From an uncultured Erysipelotrichaceae bacterium (GTDB lineage: Bacteria; Bacillota_I; Bacilli_A; Erysipelotrichales; Erysipelotrichaceae): a DNA stretch of 57,023 bases. Made by a program: the position numbers and the translations under genes. The notes beneath the pieces are model-generated. The model was not told where the DNA came from. It made no database searches and saw nothing but the letters and a program-made list of their open reading frames with translations. Location: NCBI GenBank assembly GCA_944327135.1, contig CALVGQ010000107.1:1-57023 (forward strand), read 5' to 3'. Every line of letters starts with the position of its first letter. The first letter of the stretch is position 1. Below, piece by piece: positions 9,312 through 56,330 of the stretch.

Positions 9312-9920
9312 CTATTCAAGCTCTGCTTCTTTCAATTTACCAGTTTTTGGATCGTAATGAAAGAGCGTCAATGTCAACTCCTTAAAATTATTATCATAAA
9401 CCTTTTTCGCCGTCTTCTTCATGCGCTGAATTCCTTCTTGGTCAGATTGAGTCACAAATAAAATGATGTCTCTAGCTGGAACCGAAAGAATCAGATCCTC
9501 TTTCAGGTCTTTCTTAGCAATCTGCTGCCAAAGCGGCTGAAATAAAATGTAGGAACTTGTATGATCCGGATCGCTCCGCAAAGCATAACCGCCGTATTCT
9601 GCTTTAAACAGCTCAAAGGGCTTATCCCTCAGCAAATTTTTCATCGCAATCTGCAACAGGTCTGCGTCTTTGATCTCCGAGGGCACCATGGATCGCTGAA
9701 TCAGCTGAAATGTTTCTTGATCATCAATCGCAAAAAATACACTGGTTCCTCCTAAAAAAGGAAGATTGACCAGCTCCAATGAGATCATTTCTCCATTTTC
9801 CTGCTCGATTTGAAAGGAAGCTGCACTCTCGATCGGTTTCAGGCAGGGATAAATTCGATTCCGTATTCTTTCAAAACGATCCTGAAGCGCTTGATTCTTT
9901 GCTTCCCTTTCTTCCGTCAT
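9312..9920 (-). CDS. Unknown protein, possibly DUF1444/SseB-like
   Basis: I do not firmly recognise this 202-aa soluble protein. It has an alternating alpha/beta pattern: a helical, charged N-terminus, LVNLPFLGGTSVFFAIDDQ in the middle, and PARDIILFVTQSDQEGIQRM near the C-terminus. The last part recalls DUF1444 or SseB-type proteins, only weakly. No signal peptide or membrane segment is visible. I chose the ATG at 9920 because GAGGAG sits 9 bases upstream; the longer frame from 9953 has no ribosome site. The gene is monocistronic, with its own terminator. Confidence 0.6.
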   Translation of the reverse strand: MTEEREAKNQALQDRFERIRNRIYPCLKPIESAASFQIEQENGEMISLELVNLPFLGGTSVFFAIDDQETFQLIQRSMVPSEIKDADLLQIAMKNLLRDKPFELFKAEYGGYALRSDPDHTSSYILFQPLWQQIAKKDLKEDLILSVPARDIILFVTQSDQEGIQRMKKTAKKVYDNNFKELTLTLFHYDPKTGKLKEAELE

Positions 9921-39737: not shown

Positions 39738-41027
39738 TTACTTTTGGACGTCCTTTTTTCTTTTTTTGAAAGCACGCAGCCATTCCTTCACTTTGGGAGC
39801 CATCTGCATCCACACTGCATAATGAGCCGGTTTCAGCACCAGATGAAATTCCCCGGGAAATTCATAGTAATCTCCACTAAAGCGCTTTTTAAAATCATGG
39901 ATACCAATATGCTCCGATTGCGGCGTTGGATTTCCAATCGTACCAAAAAAATCTACAAACTCAAAACCTTTTTTTAAATCATCTCGAATCTCAAACTGCT
40001 TGATCGCATAATTCGCGCCCACTTCCCTTAACAAGGCACGATTGCCTCCATAAACCAGCCAGGCCCGATGCCGTGTATTGATCGTGATCCCAGAAGACAG
40101 TGCCAGGCCTTCCGGATATTCTTGAATAAAGGCTTCCGCTTTTTTTCGGTCCTTTGCCAGCTTTTCCTCTTGAATTTCAATTTGTTTGATCCGATTGAAA
40201 GAACGGGTATCCTGTGGAGCCGTTTCCAGTTTCGTACGGCATTTCTTTTTTTCTTCGCTTAGTTCTTCCTGTTTACGATCCATTGCGGCCAAGTGGGCCT
40301 GCCCTGAATACGTTGCACTGTAACAGGTCGCCATGCCCTGAGCACTGAAACAACGATACACCGTTTCATAATAATCTTTATTGCGCTCAACAAAATGATT
40401 GCGCTCAGCCGTATCCTGCATGATCGCATAAAAAAGATCCACATTATTTTCCTTTTGACAATGAATTCCGATCCGATTGGCATTGTTCGTTGAGGCACGA
40501 ACGATTTTGGAATAATTCGCAAACAGGGCTTCCTCTGAACGGTCCAGCTTCAGCCGAAAAGTAAATCGCGGCTGTGTCCGATCAAAGCTCAAATTAAAGC
40601 CTTGATGCTGATACCCCAGGGCACTCAGCTGATCCACGATAGCCAGATGTTCTTCGATTAGCTCCTCCTTCGCATTATAAACCCGATACGGATAATCCGG
40701 ATCGATCTGAATATAACAGACATTCTTCTTCCGGCAGTATTCTTTCATTCCTTCGGTAAACAGCTTAACCAGCCGCTGATTATCAAAATCGATCACATAG
40801 CCGCGCGGAGCATAACAGATTTTGGAACGCAGAACCGGAATTGTTCGAAACAAAAGCAGGCTGCTGGCCTTCAGCACGCCATCCTCCAACAATCCGACCG
40901 TCGAAGAAGTCCAGCCGCTGGATTCTTTGACCTTGGCCCACAAGGAACACTGCATAAAATGCTCCTTAGGATGCTGCTGCATGAATTCATCATGCTGCTG
41001 CGGCGAAATTTCCATAAATTGGATCAT
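39738..41027 (-). CDS. FemXAB-family aminoacyltransferase (peptidoglycan bridge)
   Basis: This 429-aa enzyme belongs to the FemABX group, which use aminoacyl-tRNA to add amino acids to lipid II and so build the interpeptide bridge. It has the two GNAT-like halves with KICYAPRGYVIDF in the first and ALLREVGANYAIKQF/KGFEFVDFFGT in the second. A long helical hairpin (~residues 230-300, rich in Lys and Glu) is the coiled-coil arm of this family. The ATG at 41027 was chosen for the AGGA site; the longer frame enters the parB terminator. Confidence 0.9.
   Translation of the reverse strand: MIQFMEISPQQHDEFMQQHPKEHFMQCSLWAKVKESSGWTSSTVGLLEDGVLKASSLLLFRTIPVLRSKICYAPRGYVIDFDNQRLVKLFTEGMKEYCRKKNVCYIQIDPDYPYRVYNAKEELIEEHLAIVDQLSALGYQHQGFNLSFDRTQPRFTFRLKLDRSEEALFANYSKIVRASTNNANRIGIHCQKENNVDLFYAIMQDTAERNHFVERNKDYYETVYRCFSAQGMATCYSATYSGQAHLAAMDRKQEELSEEKKKCRTKLETAPQDTRSFNRIKQIEIQEEKLAKDRKKAEAFIQEYPEGLALSSGITINTRHRAWLVYGGNRALLREVGANYAIKQFEIRDDLKKGFEFVDFFGTIGNPTPQSEHIGIHDFKKRFSGDYYEFPGEFHLVLKPAHYAVWMQMAPKVKEWLRAFKKRKKDVQK
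39848..39861. promoter_or_regulatory. Candidate Noc-binding site inside the FemX gene
   Basis: ATTCCCCGGGAAAT differs at one position from the Noc consensus ATTTCCCGGGAAAT of Bacillus. It is inside coding sequence, as many Noc sites are. Its use by this Noc-like protein is untested. Confidence 0.4.
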
Positions 41028-41092: not shown

Positions 41093-41112
41093 AGACTGCC
41101 CATGGCAGTCTC
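41093..41112 (-). terminator. Terminator of parB
   Basis: On the minus strand AGACTGCC-atg-GGCAGTCT followed by TTTCTTTCC. Confidence 0.65.
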
Positions 41113-41980
41113 AATCTTCTTCAATGCACCCCAGAATTTCCAAGATCCGATTCAGATCCTTGGTATCCGTGTACGCAATAGAAATGGAATGCGCCTCGAC
41201 CTTGACCTTCGTCTGCAGTTTATTCTGCATGATTTCCTCAACATAAACCAGGTTGTGATCCTTGACTTTTTCTTCCTTGACCTTGACCGGTTTCAGCTTA
41301 GCCTCTTTGACCAGTTTTTCTACCGCTCTTACCGATAAGCCCTCATCCACGATCCGATTGGCAATATCATACGCCAGTCCTTCATCCTCCAGGGTAATCA
41401 AAGGCCGCACATGTCCCATCGACAGCCGATTTTCACTCACCAGCTGCTGAATCGATCTTGGCAGTTTCAAAAGCCGCAGACTGTTGGCAATTGTTTCTCG
41501 GCTTTTGCCCACGCGCTGGGCCAGCCGTTCCTGGGTATACCCCATGCGTTCCATCAGCCGCTGATAAGCCTGCGCTTCTTCGATAGCATTCAGATCCTCA
41601 CGCTGAATATTCTCAAGCAGCGAGATCTCCATCATCTGCTCCTCGGTAAAATCCAGAACGATTGCCGGAATCGTTTTCAGCTTTGCAACCTTGCTGGCAC
41701 GCCAGCGCCGTTCCCCAGCAATCAGCTCATAACCCTGCAGGCTTTTTCGAACCAAGATCGGAGTGAACACTCCATGCTCCCGAATCGACTGAGCCAGCTC
41801 CTCAATCTTTGCCTCATCGAATGTTTTACGCGGCTGGTATGGATTCGGCCGAATTTCTTTCAGATCGATCTCAGTCTGTGACTGACCATGATCGCTGCCG
41901 CCATTTTGAATATCCTCCAGTACCTTTTCCACATCTTCGCCAAAAATCGCATCCAATCCTTTTCCCAGTCTTTTGCTCAT
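41111..41980 (-). CDS. parB: Chromosome-partitioning protein ParB (Spo0J)
   Basis: This 289-aa CTP-dependent DNA clamp loads on parS and slides to recruit SMC. The CTP-binding motifs are visible as [25 protein letters not shown], and [29 protein letters not shown] and the HTH ([19 protein letters not shown]) follow. The C-terminal dimerisation domain ends [18 protein letters not shown]. It overlaps parA by 4 bases. Two 16-bp parS sites are in this window, 13 and 14 kb away, so the locus is self-consistent. Confidence 0.97.
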
Positions 41981-42762
41981 ACGCGTTTTTTCTCCTTATT
42001 GGTATAGGTGATGACTTCTTTCGCTAAAGCCGCATACGCTTTGGCTCCCTCTGAGCGAACATCATATTCAAAGATCGACTGTCCACGTGACGGTGCTTCG
42101 GATAATTTGATATTTCGCGGAATAAAGCTTTTATAAACCCGTTCCTTAAAATATTTCCGAACATCCTGCTGAACTTCGACCGACAGCTTGGTCCGCGCAT
42201 CAAACATGGTCAAAAGGACGCCCTCGATGACCAGCTTCTCATTAAACAACCGCTGAACAAGACGGATCGTAGAAAGCAGCTGGGTCAGCCCTTCCAAAGC
42301 ATAATATTCACATTGGACCGGGATCAGAACAGAATCCGCAGCCGTTAAGGCATTCGTATTTAATAATCCCAATGAAGGCGGGCAATCAATCAAAATGAAA
42401 TCATATTGTTCTTTGACCGGATCCAGTTTATTTTTCAGCATTTTTTCCCGGCCCACTTTAAAATTCACCATTTCCAAATCCGCTCCTGCCAGATCCACCG
42501 TCGCCGGAAGCAGATCCAGTGGAGGAATCTTCAGCGATTTCACGGCCTCCTGAACCGTTGTTTCCGACATCAGCACATCATACACACTGGCCGGATAATC
42601 ATGATCCTCTCCGGTAATTCCCTGTGAAGAATTTCCCTGCGGATCAAAATCAACCAGCAGGACCTTTTTCCCCAGATAAGCCAGTCCCGCTGCCAAATTA
42701 ATACTGGTCGTTGTTTTTCCTACGCCGCCCTTCTGATTGGCAATCGCAATAATTTTTCCCAT
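41977..42762 (-). CDS. parA: Chromosome-partitioning ATPase ParA (Soj)
   Basis: This 261-aa Walker ATPase forms nucleoid-bound dimers and acts with ParB in origin segregation and DnaA control. The deviant Walker A is [17 protein letters not shown], Walker [12 protein letters not shown]. The ATG at 42762 is 9 bases from AGGAT; a GTG three codons upstream overlaps that site. It lies between noc and parB in one operon. Confidence 0.97.
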
Positions 42763-42774
42763 TTTATCCACATC

Positions 42775-43545
42775 CTATCGTTTCGGAAACTTGATGATCA
42801 TGCGAACATCCTCTTCGGTTTCACATTCCTCTACTTCGACTTCCATACCCGTGTCCTTTACCAGCTTCACCGCCTGGTAAATCGTATTAAACGCAATCCG
42901 AACATGCCGGACAATCCCCTTATTCTGCGGTTTCGGCTCATTTCTTTTTTCCTGCTTCGTTAGACGGTCAATATACCGCTCGCTTTCAGAGACGTTCCAT
43001 CCCTTTTTGACAATCTGATCATAGACTTTGACCTGATCCTCTTTTTTAACAGACAAGATCGCGCGGGCATGACGCTCGGTAATCTTTCTTTCCCGTACTC
43101 CCTCCTGGATCACTTCGGGAAGATTTAAAAGACGGATCTTATTCGCAATCGTCGACTGCGATTTTCCCATCCGTTTGGCCAGCTCTTCCTGAGTGCAGCT
43201 TGCCTGACGCATGATTTCTACATAGGCTTTGGCCTCTTCCACCGCACTTAAATTCTCACGCTGAATATTTTCCACCAAGGCCATTTGCGCCGTTTCCAGC
43301 TCATCCGCACTCATGACTACACAGGGAACTTCATAATAACCGATTTTCTTACAAGCCCGAAAACGCCGTTCCCCGGCAATGATCTCATATCCTTCGTTAA
43401 TTTTCCTTACTGTAATTGGCTGGATCAATCCATGTTCCCGAATGGACTCAGCCAGCTCATCCAGACTTTCTTCATTAAACTCTACCCGCGGCTGATAGCG
43501 ATTGGTTTCGATCTGCCAAACGGGAATATTTAAAATCTCACGCAT
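42775..43545 (-). CDS. noc: ParB-family nucleoid-occlusion protein (Noc-like)
   Basis: This 256-aa ParB paralogue has the same CTPase core (IREHGLIQPITVRK, GERRFRACKK, ENIQRENLSAVEEAKAY) and HTH (QEELAKRMGKSQSTIANKI). Its position between rsmG and parA is the Bacillus noc position. The N-terminus starts directly at the core (MREILNIPVWQIETNRYQPR) and lacks the amphipathic helix that anchors Bacillus Noc to the membrane. It overlaps rsmG by 8 bases. It could therefore be a second ParB-like protein with changed function. Confidence 0.88.
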   Translation of the reverse strand: MREILNIPVWQIETNRYQPRVEFNEESLDELAESIREHGLIQPITVRKINEGYEIIAGERRFRACKKIGYYEVPCVVMSADELETAQMALVENIQRENLSAVEEAKAYVEIMRQASCTQEELAKRMGKSQSTIANKIRLLNLPEVIQEGVRERKITERHARAILSVKKEDQVKVYDQIVKKGWNVSESERYIDRLTKQEKRNEPKPQNKGIVRHVRIAFNTIYQAVKLVKDTGMEVEVEECETEEDVRMIIKFPKR

Positions 43546-54637: not shown

Positions 54638-54719
54638 AAAAGAAAGGGTACACACAAACAGTACTTCTTATGGCTGCTACGTTCCCGTCCTGACCAGATT
54701 CAAAGCTGTTTGTTGTACC
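54638..54719 (-). ncRNA. ffs: Signal recognition particle RNA, small bacterial type
   Basis: On the minus strand the domain IV core GGTCAGGACGGGAACGTAGC is followed by AGCC, which is the Ffh-binding hairpin with its symmetric and asymmetric loops. The outer helix pairs GGTAC-ACAAACAG at the 5' end with CTGTTTGT-GTACC at the 3' end. A U-rich tract follows. The short ~80-nt form is typical of several Bacillota. Confidence 0.9.
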
Positions 54720-54726
54720 GTGGTTT

Positions 54727-54767: not shown

Positions 54768-54783
54768 TGTTTCACGTGAAACA
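54768..54783. promoter_or_regulatory. parS site 1 (ParB loading site)
   Basis: TGTTTCACGTGAAACA matches the bacterial parS consensus at all 16 positions. It sits between the serS terminator and the ffs promoter. Confidence 0.95.
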
Positions 54784-54784
54784 T

Positions 54785-54820
54785 AAAAAATAAGACGAAC
54801 AACCCTCCTCTTATTTTTTT
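54785..54820 (-). terminator. Terminator of serS
   Basis: On the minus strand AAATAAGA, loop, TCTTATTTTTT; overlaps the stop codon. Confidence 0.75.
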
Positions 54821-56094
54821 ACTAATTTTTCTTTTCCTCCCATATACATTCGAAGTGCTTCTGGGATTCGAATACTTCCGTCAGATTCCAAATTATTTTC
54901 AAGGAAGGCAATTAACATTCTCGGCGGGGCAACAACCGTATTATTCAGAGTATGGGCAAAGTATTTTCCGTTTTCTCCATTAACCCGAATACCAAGGCGT
55001 CTTGCCTGTGCATCACCTAAATTTGAACAGCTTCCTACTTCAAAGTATTTTTTCTGCCGAGGCGACCAAGCTTCCACATCACAGCTTTTTACTTTCAAAT
55101 CAGCTAAATCCCCAGAGCAGCATTCCAATGTACGAACCGGAATATCCAACGTTCTGAAAAAATCAACAGTATTTTTCCACAACTGTTCATACCATTTCAT
55201 AGAATCCTCTGGTTTGCACACAACGACCATTTCCTGTTTTTCAAACTGATGGATTCGATAAACACCCCGTTCCTCAATACCATGAGCACCAACCTCTTTC
55301 CTAAAACAAGGAGAATAACTAGTCAGTGTCTGTGGCAATGCTTTTTCATCCAGAATCGTGTCAATGAATTTTCCAATCATGGAGTGTTCACTGGTTCCAA
55401 TCAAATACAGATCTTCACCCTCGATCTTATACATCATGTTTTCCATTTCTGCGAAGCTCATTACTCCGTTCACAACATTGCCATGAATCATAAATGGAGG
55501 AATATAATAAGTAAATCCCCGATCAATCATAAAATCGCGGGCATAGGATAAAATGGCTGAATGAAGGCGCGCAATATCCCCTTTCAGATAGTAAAATCCA
55601 TTGCCGCTTGTTTTTCGAGCACTGTCCAAATCAATTCCATCCAAGCTTTCCATGATATCAACATGATAAGGAATTTCAAAGTCAGGAACAACAGGTTCAC
55701 CAAAACGTTCCAATTCAACATTTTCACTGTCATCTTTTCCGATCGGAACACTAGGATCGATAAGATTAGGAAGAATCATCATGATCGTTTTAATTTGATT
55801 TTGAAGTTCTTCCTCTTTTACTTCGAGTTCAGCCAACTGTGCAGCAATTTCAGCAACTTGTTTTTTTACCTCTTCAGCTTCCTCTTTCTTTCCTTGTCCC
55901 ATCAAAGCGCCAATCTTCTTAGAAATCGCATTTCTTTGCGATCGAAGATAATCTCCCTTGGTTTTTGAGGCTCGATATTCTTTATCTAAGGCAATGACCT
56001 CATCCACCTTAGGAAGCTTTTCATCTTGAAATTTTTTTCTAATGTTTTCTTTGACCAATTCTGGATTGTTCCGTAATAAATTGATATCTAACAT
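54811..56094 (-). CDS. serS: Serine-tRNA ligase
   Basis: This 427-aa class II synthetase charges tRNA-Ser (and tRNA-Sec where present). The N-terminal ~110 residues form the tRNA-binding coiled-coil arm (rich in Glu/Lys). Motif 2 is CFRKEVGAHGIEERGVYRIH and motif 3 is NNTVVAPPRMLIAFLENN. The ATG at 56094 has AGGAGG upstream; the longer frame is the T-box leader itself. Expression is controlled by tRNA-Ser charging through the upstream T-box. Confidence 0.97.
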   Translation of the reverse strand: MLDINLLRNNPELVKENIRKKFQDEKLPKVDEVIALDKEYRASKTKGDYLRSQRNAISKKIGALMGQGKKEEAEEVKKQVAEIAAQLAELEVKEEELQNQIKTIMMILPNLIDPSVPIGKDDSENVELERFGEPVVPDFEIPYHVDIMESLDGIDLDSARKTSGNGFYYLKGDIARLHSAILSYARDFMIDRGFTYYIPPFMIHGNVVNGVMSFAEMENMMYKIEGEDLYLIGTSEHSMIGKFIDTILDEKALPQTLTSYSPCFRKEVGAHGIEERGVYRIHQFEKQEMVVVCKPEDSMKWYEQLWKNTVDFFRTLDIPVRTLECCSGDLADLKVKSCDVEAWSPRQKKYFEVGSCSNLGDAQARRLGIRVNGENGKYFAHTLNNTVVAPPRMLIAFLENNLESDGSIRIPEALRMYMGGKEKLVKK

Positions 56095-56106: not shown

Positions 56107-56325
56107 AAAATAAAAAGGCCCGTCTCCATAAGGGACGATGCCTCGTGTTGCCACCCTTTTTGAATTGTTTCACGTGAAACAATTCCACTCTTTGCGATAA
56201 CGGCGCCACCGTGAAGTTTTTCTTCCGCTCAAAGATGGATTCATAGAATTTTGAATCGTGATTTTCACCAGCCATCACTTCTCTGAAAACAAAGATTCTA
56301 TTACTAATTCTTCTCAACGCTTATG
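56107..56325 (-). promoter_or_regulatory. T-box riboswitch of serS
   Basis: The leader has stem I features (AGAGAAG with GGCTGGTGAAAA at its apex), a probable specifier UCC (Ser) followed by A, and the T-box sequence AGGGTGGCAACACGAGG (56141-56157). UGGC there pairs with the GCCA end of tRNA-Ser. The terminator is formed by GGCATCGTCCC and GGAGACGGGCC followed by TTTTTATTTT. A palindrome containing parS occupies the stem just upstream of the T-box motif. Confidence 0.9.
56166..56181. promoter_or_regulatory. parS site 2, inside the serS T-box leader
   Basis: TGTTTCACGTGAAACA is a perfect parS. It is the core of a longer 24-base perfect palindrome (56162-56185) that as RNA would form a stable hairpin between stem I and the T-box motif. 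Confidence 0.95.
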
Positions 56326-56330
56326 TCCTA

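Follow-up and report, generated by a model that had tools for sequence, protein, structure and literature searches.

The window, that is, the whole stretch of DNA that was analysed, comprises 57,023 nucleotides of contig CALVGQ010000107.1 from an uncultured Erysipelotrichaceae bacterium. Below, loci, genomes, genera and families carry the working handles of the analysis (for example L158, G015, g31 and f7). The window contains a set of chromosome segregation genes and, at its far end, the serine-tRNA ligase gene with its leader:

41111-41980, minus strand: ParB, putative parS-binding protein (TIGR00180, 207.2 bits; nearest solved relative B. subtilis Spo0J, 6sdk, E 4.7e-61)
41977-42771, minus strand: ParA-like ATPase beside parB (ParA/MinD-type; no model above its curated cut-off, the best being NF041546 with 128.2 vs 180)
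42775-43545, minus strand: Noc, a ParB paralogue of other DNA specificity (TIGR04285, 333.8 bits vs cut-off 315; nearest solved relative Noc 7ng0)
54639-54724, minus strand: SRP RNA gene, after the second parS (RF00169, 61.4 bits)
54811-56094, minus strand: serS, serine--tRNA ligase, with its ATG at 56094 (TIGR00414, 411.5 bits vs cut-off 301.65)
56112-56142, minus strand: terminator hairpin (GGC...GCC) followed by a U run (sequence, leader fold)
56128-56326, minus strand: serS T-box leader, a tRNA-Ser-sensing riboswitch (RF00230, 122.2 bits vs gathering score 93, full model 1-219)
56144-56157, minus strand: T-box sequence AGGGTGGCAACACG, the 5' half of the antiterminator (sequence, RF00230 alignment)
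56162-56185, minus strand: stem III hairpin, a 24-base palindrome with a 10-bp stem and an ACGU loop (RF00230 stem III brackets; fold of -13.9 kcal/mol)
56166-56181, no strand assigned: perfect parS, core of stem III (parS scan)
56186-56190, minus strand: GAGTG, matching the 5'-RRRxG of the RRRxG-stem III-AA discriminator motif (sequence; motif according to PMC7583486)

The GTG start at 56154 given in the list of open reading frames is a mechanical extension of serS, and the ATG at 56094 was taken instead. The T-box sequence and the terminator precede an aminoacyl-tRNA synthetase gene, as expected of a T-box, and the specifier-loop triplet in the RF00230 alignment, UCC (Ser) within GAAUCCAUCUUUGAGC, agrees with the downstream serS. 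Read along the leader, GAGTG is followed by the hairpin, AAAA and AGGGTGGCAACACG. This order fits the T-box discriminator, in which the stem and loop of stem III are variable and the flanks are conserved (PMC7583486). The stem III brackets of the RF00230 alignment coincide exactly with the parS hairpin, directly 5' of the T-box sequence, which confirms the placement proposed in the preliminary description.

The palindrome itself (56162-56185) reads GAATTGTTTCACGTGAAACAATTC and is without mismatch. Its core shows 0 mismatches to the 16-bp parS consensus TGTTTCACGTGAAACA, taken as printed in PMC7383237, so that the window sequence and the parS scan also uphold the earlier identification of a perfect parS at the centre of a 24-base palindrome. 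When GAGUGGAAUUGUUUCACGUGAAACAAUUC... is folded alone it forms a 10-bp hairpin with an ACGU loop, and the 47-nt piece reaches -13.9 kcal/mol, a value equalled by 1 of 200 shuffles. A second perfect parS, absent from the preliminary description, lies at 54768-54783, 28 nt 3' of the serS stop codon. The window holds three parS-like sites with up to 3 mismatches (0.34 expected from shuffles), and in the draft genome (2,045,300 bases, 117 contigs) the sites at 56166-56181 and 54768-54783 are the only parS within 2 mismatches.

The specificity motifs of ParB in the window, GKSR and SMGH, correspond to R173 and G201 in Caulobacter numbering, and Noc carries Q and R there; the residue numbers are carried over from the motif, and the specificity positions follow PMC7383237, according to which positions 179 and 184 vary in ParB. 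The genome thus encodes a ParB of the predicted parS-reading type. For Noc, a Noc-box-like site, ATTCCCCGGGAAAT, occurs at 39848-39861 with one mismatch to the 14-base NBS core, and when up to 2 mismatches are allowed the window contains 2 NBS-like sites, where 0.48 would be expected.

The window contig ends after serS, and dnaA lies off this contig. In the relative G030, which is assembled as one contig, dnaA near base 317 is followed by dnaN, gyrB, gyrA and then serS at 9.6 kb, with parS at 9587 and 10959; from this gene order, serS carries a parS cluster near oriC, just after gyrA and about 10 kb from dnaA. In genomes with parS in stem III (bearers), this site is one of one to three parS with up to 1 mismatch, and it is the sole one in G031 and G033. 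In 13 of 16 bearer genera and 11 of 28 non-bearers, a further parS-like site (0-2 mismatches) lies no further than about 60 nt from the serS stop codon. In many genera parS lies directly 3' of the serS stop or overlaps it (e.g., TAA and then TGTTTCACGTGAAACA), and parS often brackets the gene.

The recurrence of the arrangement was followed with a pattern in which the T-box sequence comes 3-24 bases after parS, for which the reversed pattern served as control. Of the 315 genomes of the order, 107 contain the pattern, and these belong to 19 of 79 genera (105/272 genomes in the family of the window, 2/43 in a sister family), and the reversed control has 0 matches in every one of the 315 genomes. 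Among 395 genomes drawn from the class it is found in 26, including six families outside the order (f7, 2/2; f10, 4/4; f13, 2/8; f18, 1/2; f24, 1/1; f25, 1/1). A SerS gene lies downstream at 52 of the 54 loci checked, the other two being at contig ends, and 17 of 20 other parS leaders scanned pass the RF00230 gathering score (L224, L235 and L263 fall below it). Depending on the filter, the leaders number 88 distinct (including the later-dropped L077 and L096), 83 (including both), 81 (without both) or 80 (with 150 nt upstream), and the 46 reference leaders correspond to 43 distinct hairpins. With a pattern anchored on GAG, the specifier is TCN in 73 of the 80 parS leaders, compared with 5-22 of 80 for seven other codon boxes; an initial pattern, GAAnnnA, was too rigid and gave Ser in 24 of 81 only.

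The limits of the distribution rest on a scan of GTDB contigs (at least 116 stretches), and a phylum-level search gave the same class only. Among the at least 116 parS stretches listed in the scan, 48 had a T-box motif after parS. Two of these, L077 and L096 (Opitutales), were dropped as T-box leaders because of their context, leaving 46 of the 48 listed; in 45 of these serS follows, and one (L111) is cut off by a contig edge. These 46 stretches derive from Erysipelotrichaceae/-ales, Solobacterium, Holdemania, Erysipelothrix and a few "Firmicutes" or "Bacilli" MAGs; named bearers among the matches listed are Holdemania filiformis, H. massiliensis, Solobacterium MAGs, Erysipelothrix tonsillarum and E. 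inopinata. The remaining stretches among the matches listed are chance neighbours of parS.

A sample of leaders selected independently of parS was obtained by searching for the SerS protein in 57 genomes of the family, one per genus. SerS was present in 51; the region upstream of it contains the T-box sequence in 44, lacks it in 5 and is cut off by a contig edge in 2. In the 62 bases before the T-box, the best parS match has 0-1 mismatch in 16 of the 44 genera and 6-9 in 28, with no intermediate matches among the 44. Shuffled regions reach 2 mismatches or fewer in about 1 of 10,000 cases, and 6-9 mismatches is the chance level. Among 12 leaders scanned that have no parS in stem III, 11 pass the RF00230 gathering score as full T-boxes. 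Within genera, the state of stem III is steady: per genus, the pattern occurs in 55/70 genomes of g31, 12/13 of g59, 7/7 of g8, 7/8 of g26, 3/4 of g35 and 0/36 of g3. In g31, SerS was found in 60 of 70 genomes, and in the best 30 of these 60 loci parS is present in stem III in all 30, perfect in 26 and with one change in 4. The four altered leaders (L292, L298, L300 and L305) carry TGTTTCACGGGAAACA or its reverse complement, in which position 6 of one half-site is the NBS base. This sequence is a hybrid of parS and a Noc site and might putatively be read by Noc as well as by ParB.

On a SerS tree of 49 genera, whose backbone is partly unresolved and which may depart from the species tree, the stem III state requires 10 parsimony changes, at least 4 of them forced by well-supported branches. 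The overlap is therefore fairly easily lost or gained. The state is nevertheless clustered (10 changes against a shuffle mean of 13.6, with 8 of 500 shuffles as low), and one clade of 21 genera is entirely without parS in stem III. Because there are relatives whose T-box has a different stem III, the overlap is not obligatory; it has been gained or lost repeatedly, and since 28 of 44 genera have the T-box without parS, neither function requires the other. The preliminary description had asked whether parS always coincides with this stem: it recurs there across genera and families, but not always, as these 28 genera have an unrelated stem III.

The hairpin was examined for covariation in an alignment of 43 distinct hairpins from 46 leaders (30 of g31 and 16 of the family sample). 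All six inner pairs of the stem fall inside parS, and they are invariant except for one U-G. By contrast, in the five arm pairs outside the core (columns 5-9 with 26-30), 79.1% of the cells are paired against 61.8% in shuffled alignments, two-sided changes occur in 40 cells against 19.5, and covariation is 0.508 against 0.220, a value that 0 of 500 shuffles attain, although these shuffles ignore relatedness. Every measure of arm pairing drops when the partner is shifted by one column. In an independent control, Watson-Crick pairing at the first four arm positions amounts to 0.88, 0.89, 0.69 and 0.57 for T-box parS (a set of 83 rows that includes the two chance matches L077 and L096), compared with 0.73, 0.54, 0.41 and 0.39 for 95 parS outside T-boxes in the loci collected. 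Over the first five arm positions in 81 leaders, pairing sums to 316; the shuffles average 218, and 0 of 2000 are as high. The hairpin thus bears both the signature of a DNA site, the invariant core, and that of an RNA stem, the compensating arms. Both constraints hold, because an RNA stem alone would show compensation in the inner pairs and a DNA site alone would show none in the arms.

Some parS sites are found in other settings. Terminator-like hairpins with a T run and parS in the stem occur at L158, L252, L018 and L184; in L158 (G015) the sequence is GGAGGAAATGTTTCACGTGAAACATTTCCTTTTTT, about 296 nt before serS, and the T-box stem III of this genome is unrelated. A role of parS as a terminator hairpin in general was rejected, as no more than 4 of the 113 parS outside T-boxes resemble terminators. 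In L253 (G319), a 50-base perfect palindrome is centred on the second parS, ATAGAAAAAAGCAA-parS-TTGCTTTTTTCTAT plus three pairs on each side. In L206 (G035), 28 nt before serS, there is no T-box, and parS lies in a short leader beside the ribosome-binding site. The SerS proteins of G007, G035, f7, f10, f13, f18, f24 and f25 are only 33-36% identical to that of the window, compared with at least 66% for the other sampled members of the family. Except in G035, where it is absent, these genomes with a divergent SerS share the same leader with parS in stem III; possibly, serS was replaced behind an unchanged leader in G007, f7, f10, f13, f18, f24 and f25.

Judging from these sequence comparisons, the 24-base palindrome is probably (at a probability of about 0.8) a dual-use element, a parS accommodated in the one sequence-free hairpin of the serS T-box. 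As duplex DNA, the palindrome would be one of two origin-region parS sites, on which ParB would load. As RNA of the serS strand, it would be stem III of a seryl-tRNA-sensing T-box, stacking beside the antiterminator of a presumably active riboswitch. In stem III alone among the T-box helices, stem and loop can take any sequence provided that folding holds, and a perfect palindrome such as parS would fit there with the riboswitch unharmed; elsewhere in the leader of about 200 nt it would break conserved structure. The palindrome would be tolerated because stem III needs only to fold, and we infer that no dedicated regulatory link joins the segregation and riboswitch roles. This dual use builds on the sequence, its position, its recurrence, the invariant parS core, the covariation of the arms and the presence of a parS-type ParB in the same genome. 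Counted against it are the 28 of 44 genera without parS, the changes on the tree, the 3 of 20 leaders below the RF00230 score and the 4 of 30 altered g31 leaders.

The absence of parS from stem III in most genera, together with the frequent occurrence of parS elsewhere near serS, could suggest that parS came to lie in the leader by chance or by hitch-hiking, with no stem III role, or that the palindrome is a leftover. The preliminary description had likewise held that relatives keeping the T-box with an unrelated stem III would mark the overlap as accidental. Such relatives exist (28/44 genera), but accident is still excluded, because parS recurs at one exact position without intermediates. 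The same position is occupied in 107 genomes of 19 genera, and in 8 families in all; the arms show compensating changes, 30 of the 30 best g31 leaders retain the site, and the distribution of mismatches is two-peaked. Accidental overlap, which is extremely improbable, was rejected on recurrence, the SerS-chosen sample and covariation. It is very unlikely, too, that the 16-mer owes its conservation to the RNA or to another protein, such as Noc, with the match to parS being secondary. The 4 of 30 best g31 leaders with TGTTTCACGGGAAACA in either orientation, and hence the NBS base at position 6, speak for another protein. However, the stem III sequence is free in the 28 genera without parS, copies of exactly this 16-mer are also found in the same genomes where there is no T-box, both at the serS stop codon and further downstream, and at the two switching positions the ParB of the window has R and G, where Noc has Q and R.

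A regulatory coupling, in which ParB nucleation and a polymerase paused at stem III exclude or slow each other and the overlap is kept for its usefulness, is unlikely. Transcription of the serS leader might tune ParB loading, or a ParB roadblock might lengthen the pause or repress serS. Stem III has been proposed as a polymerase pause site, with pauses of 30-60 s in vitro with NusG (Grundy and Henkin, 2004, quoted in PMC6197855), and a pause there would place the polymerase over or beside parS. In S. pneumoniae and P. aeruginosa, the expression of genes near parS changes when ParB is bound there (PMC7022226), and parS brackets serS in 13 of 16 bearer genera. Against coupling, 28 of 44 genera with the same T-box lack parS in stem III, the state flips on the SerS tree, and many non-bearer genera have parS at the serS stop codon, which would give ParB access to serS anyway; moreover, the effects of ParB on the transcriptome are described as minor in most species (review, PMC7022226). 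A true junction of amino-acid sensing and segregation, in which a polymerase paused at stem III on parS competes with ParB loading, appears slightly less likely still, and the same doubt applies to its variants, in which serine status or serS transcription gates the loading of the ParB clamp, or ParB sets the pause of the riboswitch. Shortening of stem III has little effect on tRNA binding (PMC6197855), and ParB can pass roadblocks (PMC9242446).

The leader resembles the known T-boxes of the serS, tRNA-Ser class (RF00230) in its full-length match, T-box sequence, Ser specifier, terminator, downstream serS and RRRxG/AA flanks, but differs in that the tip of stem III, which is normally free, is the same 16-base sequence across genera. 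The segregation genes and sites resemble the Spo0J-type ParABS system of B. subtilis in the perfect 16-mer, its few copies, its origin-proximal position in relatives and the ParA-ParB-Noc genes in the region. Unlike in B. subtilis, parS lies here inside a structured, transcribed regulatory RNA and has compensating RNA-pairing arms. As with parS3/parS4 of P. aeruginosa and the S. pneumoniae parS at -1.6 degrees, parS is near a gene that ParB may affect; those sites, however, are promoter-proximal or kilobases away (PMC7022226), whereas here the site is part of the structure of the leader RNA. Among the titles and abstract beginnings of the open-licence papers listed by literature searches, no description of a parS/T-box overlap was found. 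Both parS and the T-box are well known, and as far as seen it is their union in one element, as parS and stem III, that is new.

In this family of gut-type bacteria, whose RNA switch controls the serine-tRNA ligase gene, one stretch of DNA appears to have been kept by evolution for two unrelated jobs. Apparently, the segregation machinery reads this sequence as a DNA duplex and the riboswitch reads it again as a folded RNA, and the two readings are separable within one alignment, where the core is fixed and the arms compensate. The arrangement shows a place for a centromere tag within a transcribed region. With one to three sites per genome, it also offers a natural system for asking if transcription across parS and the loading of ParB interfere with one another.
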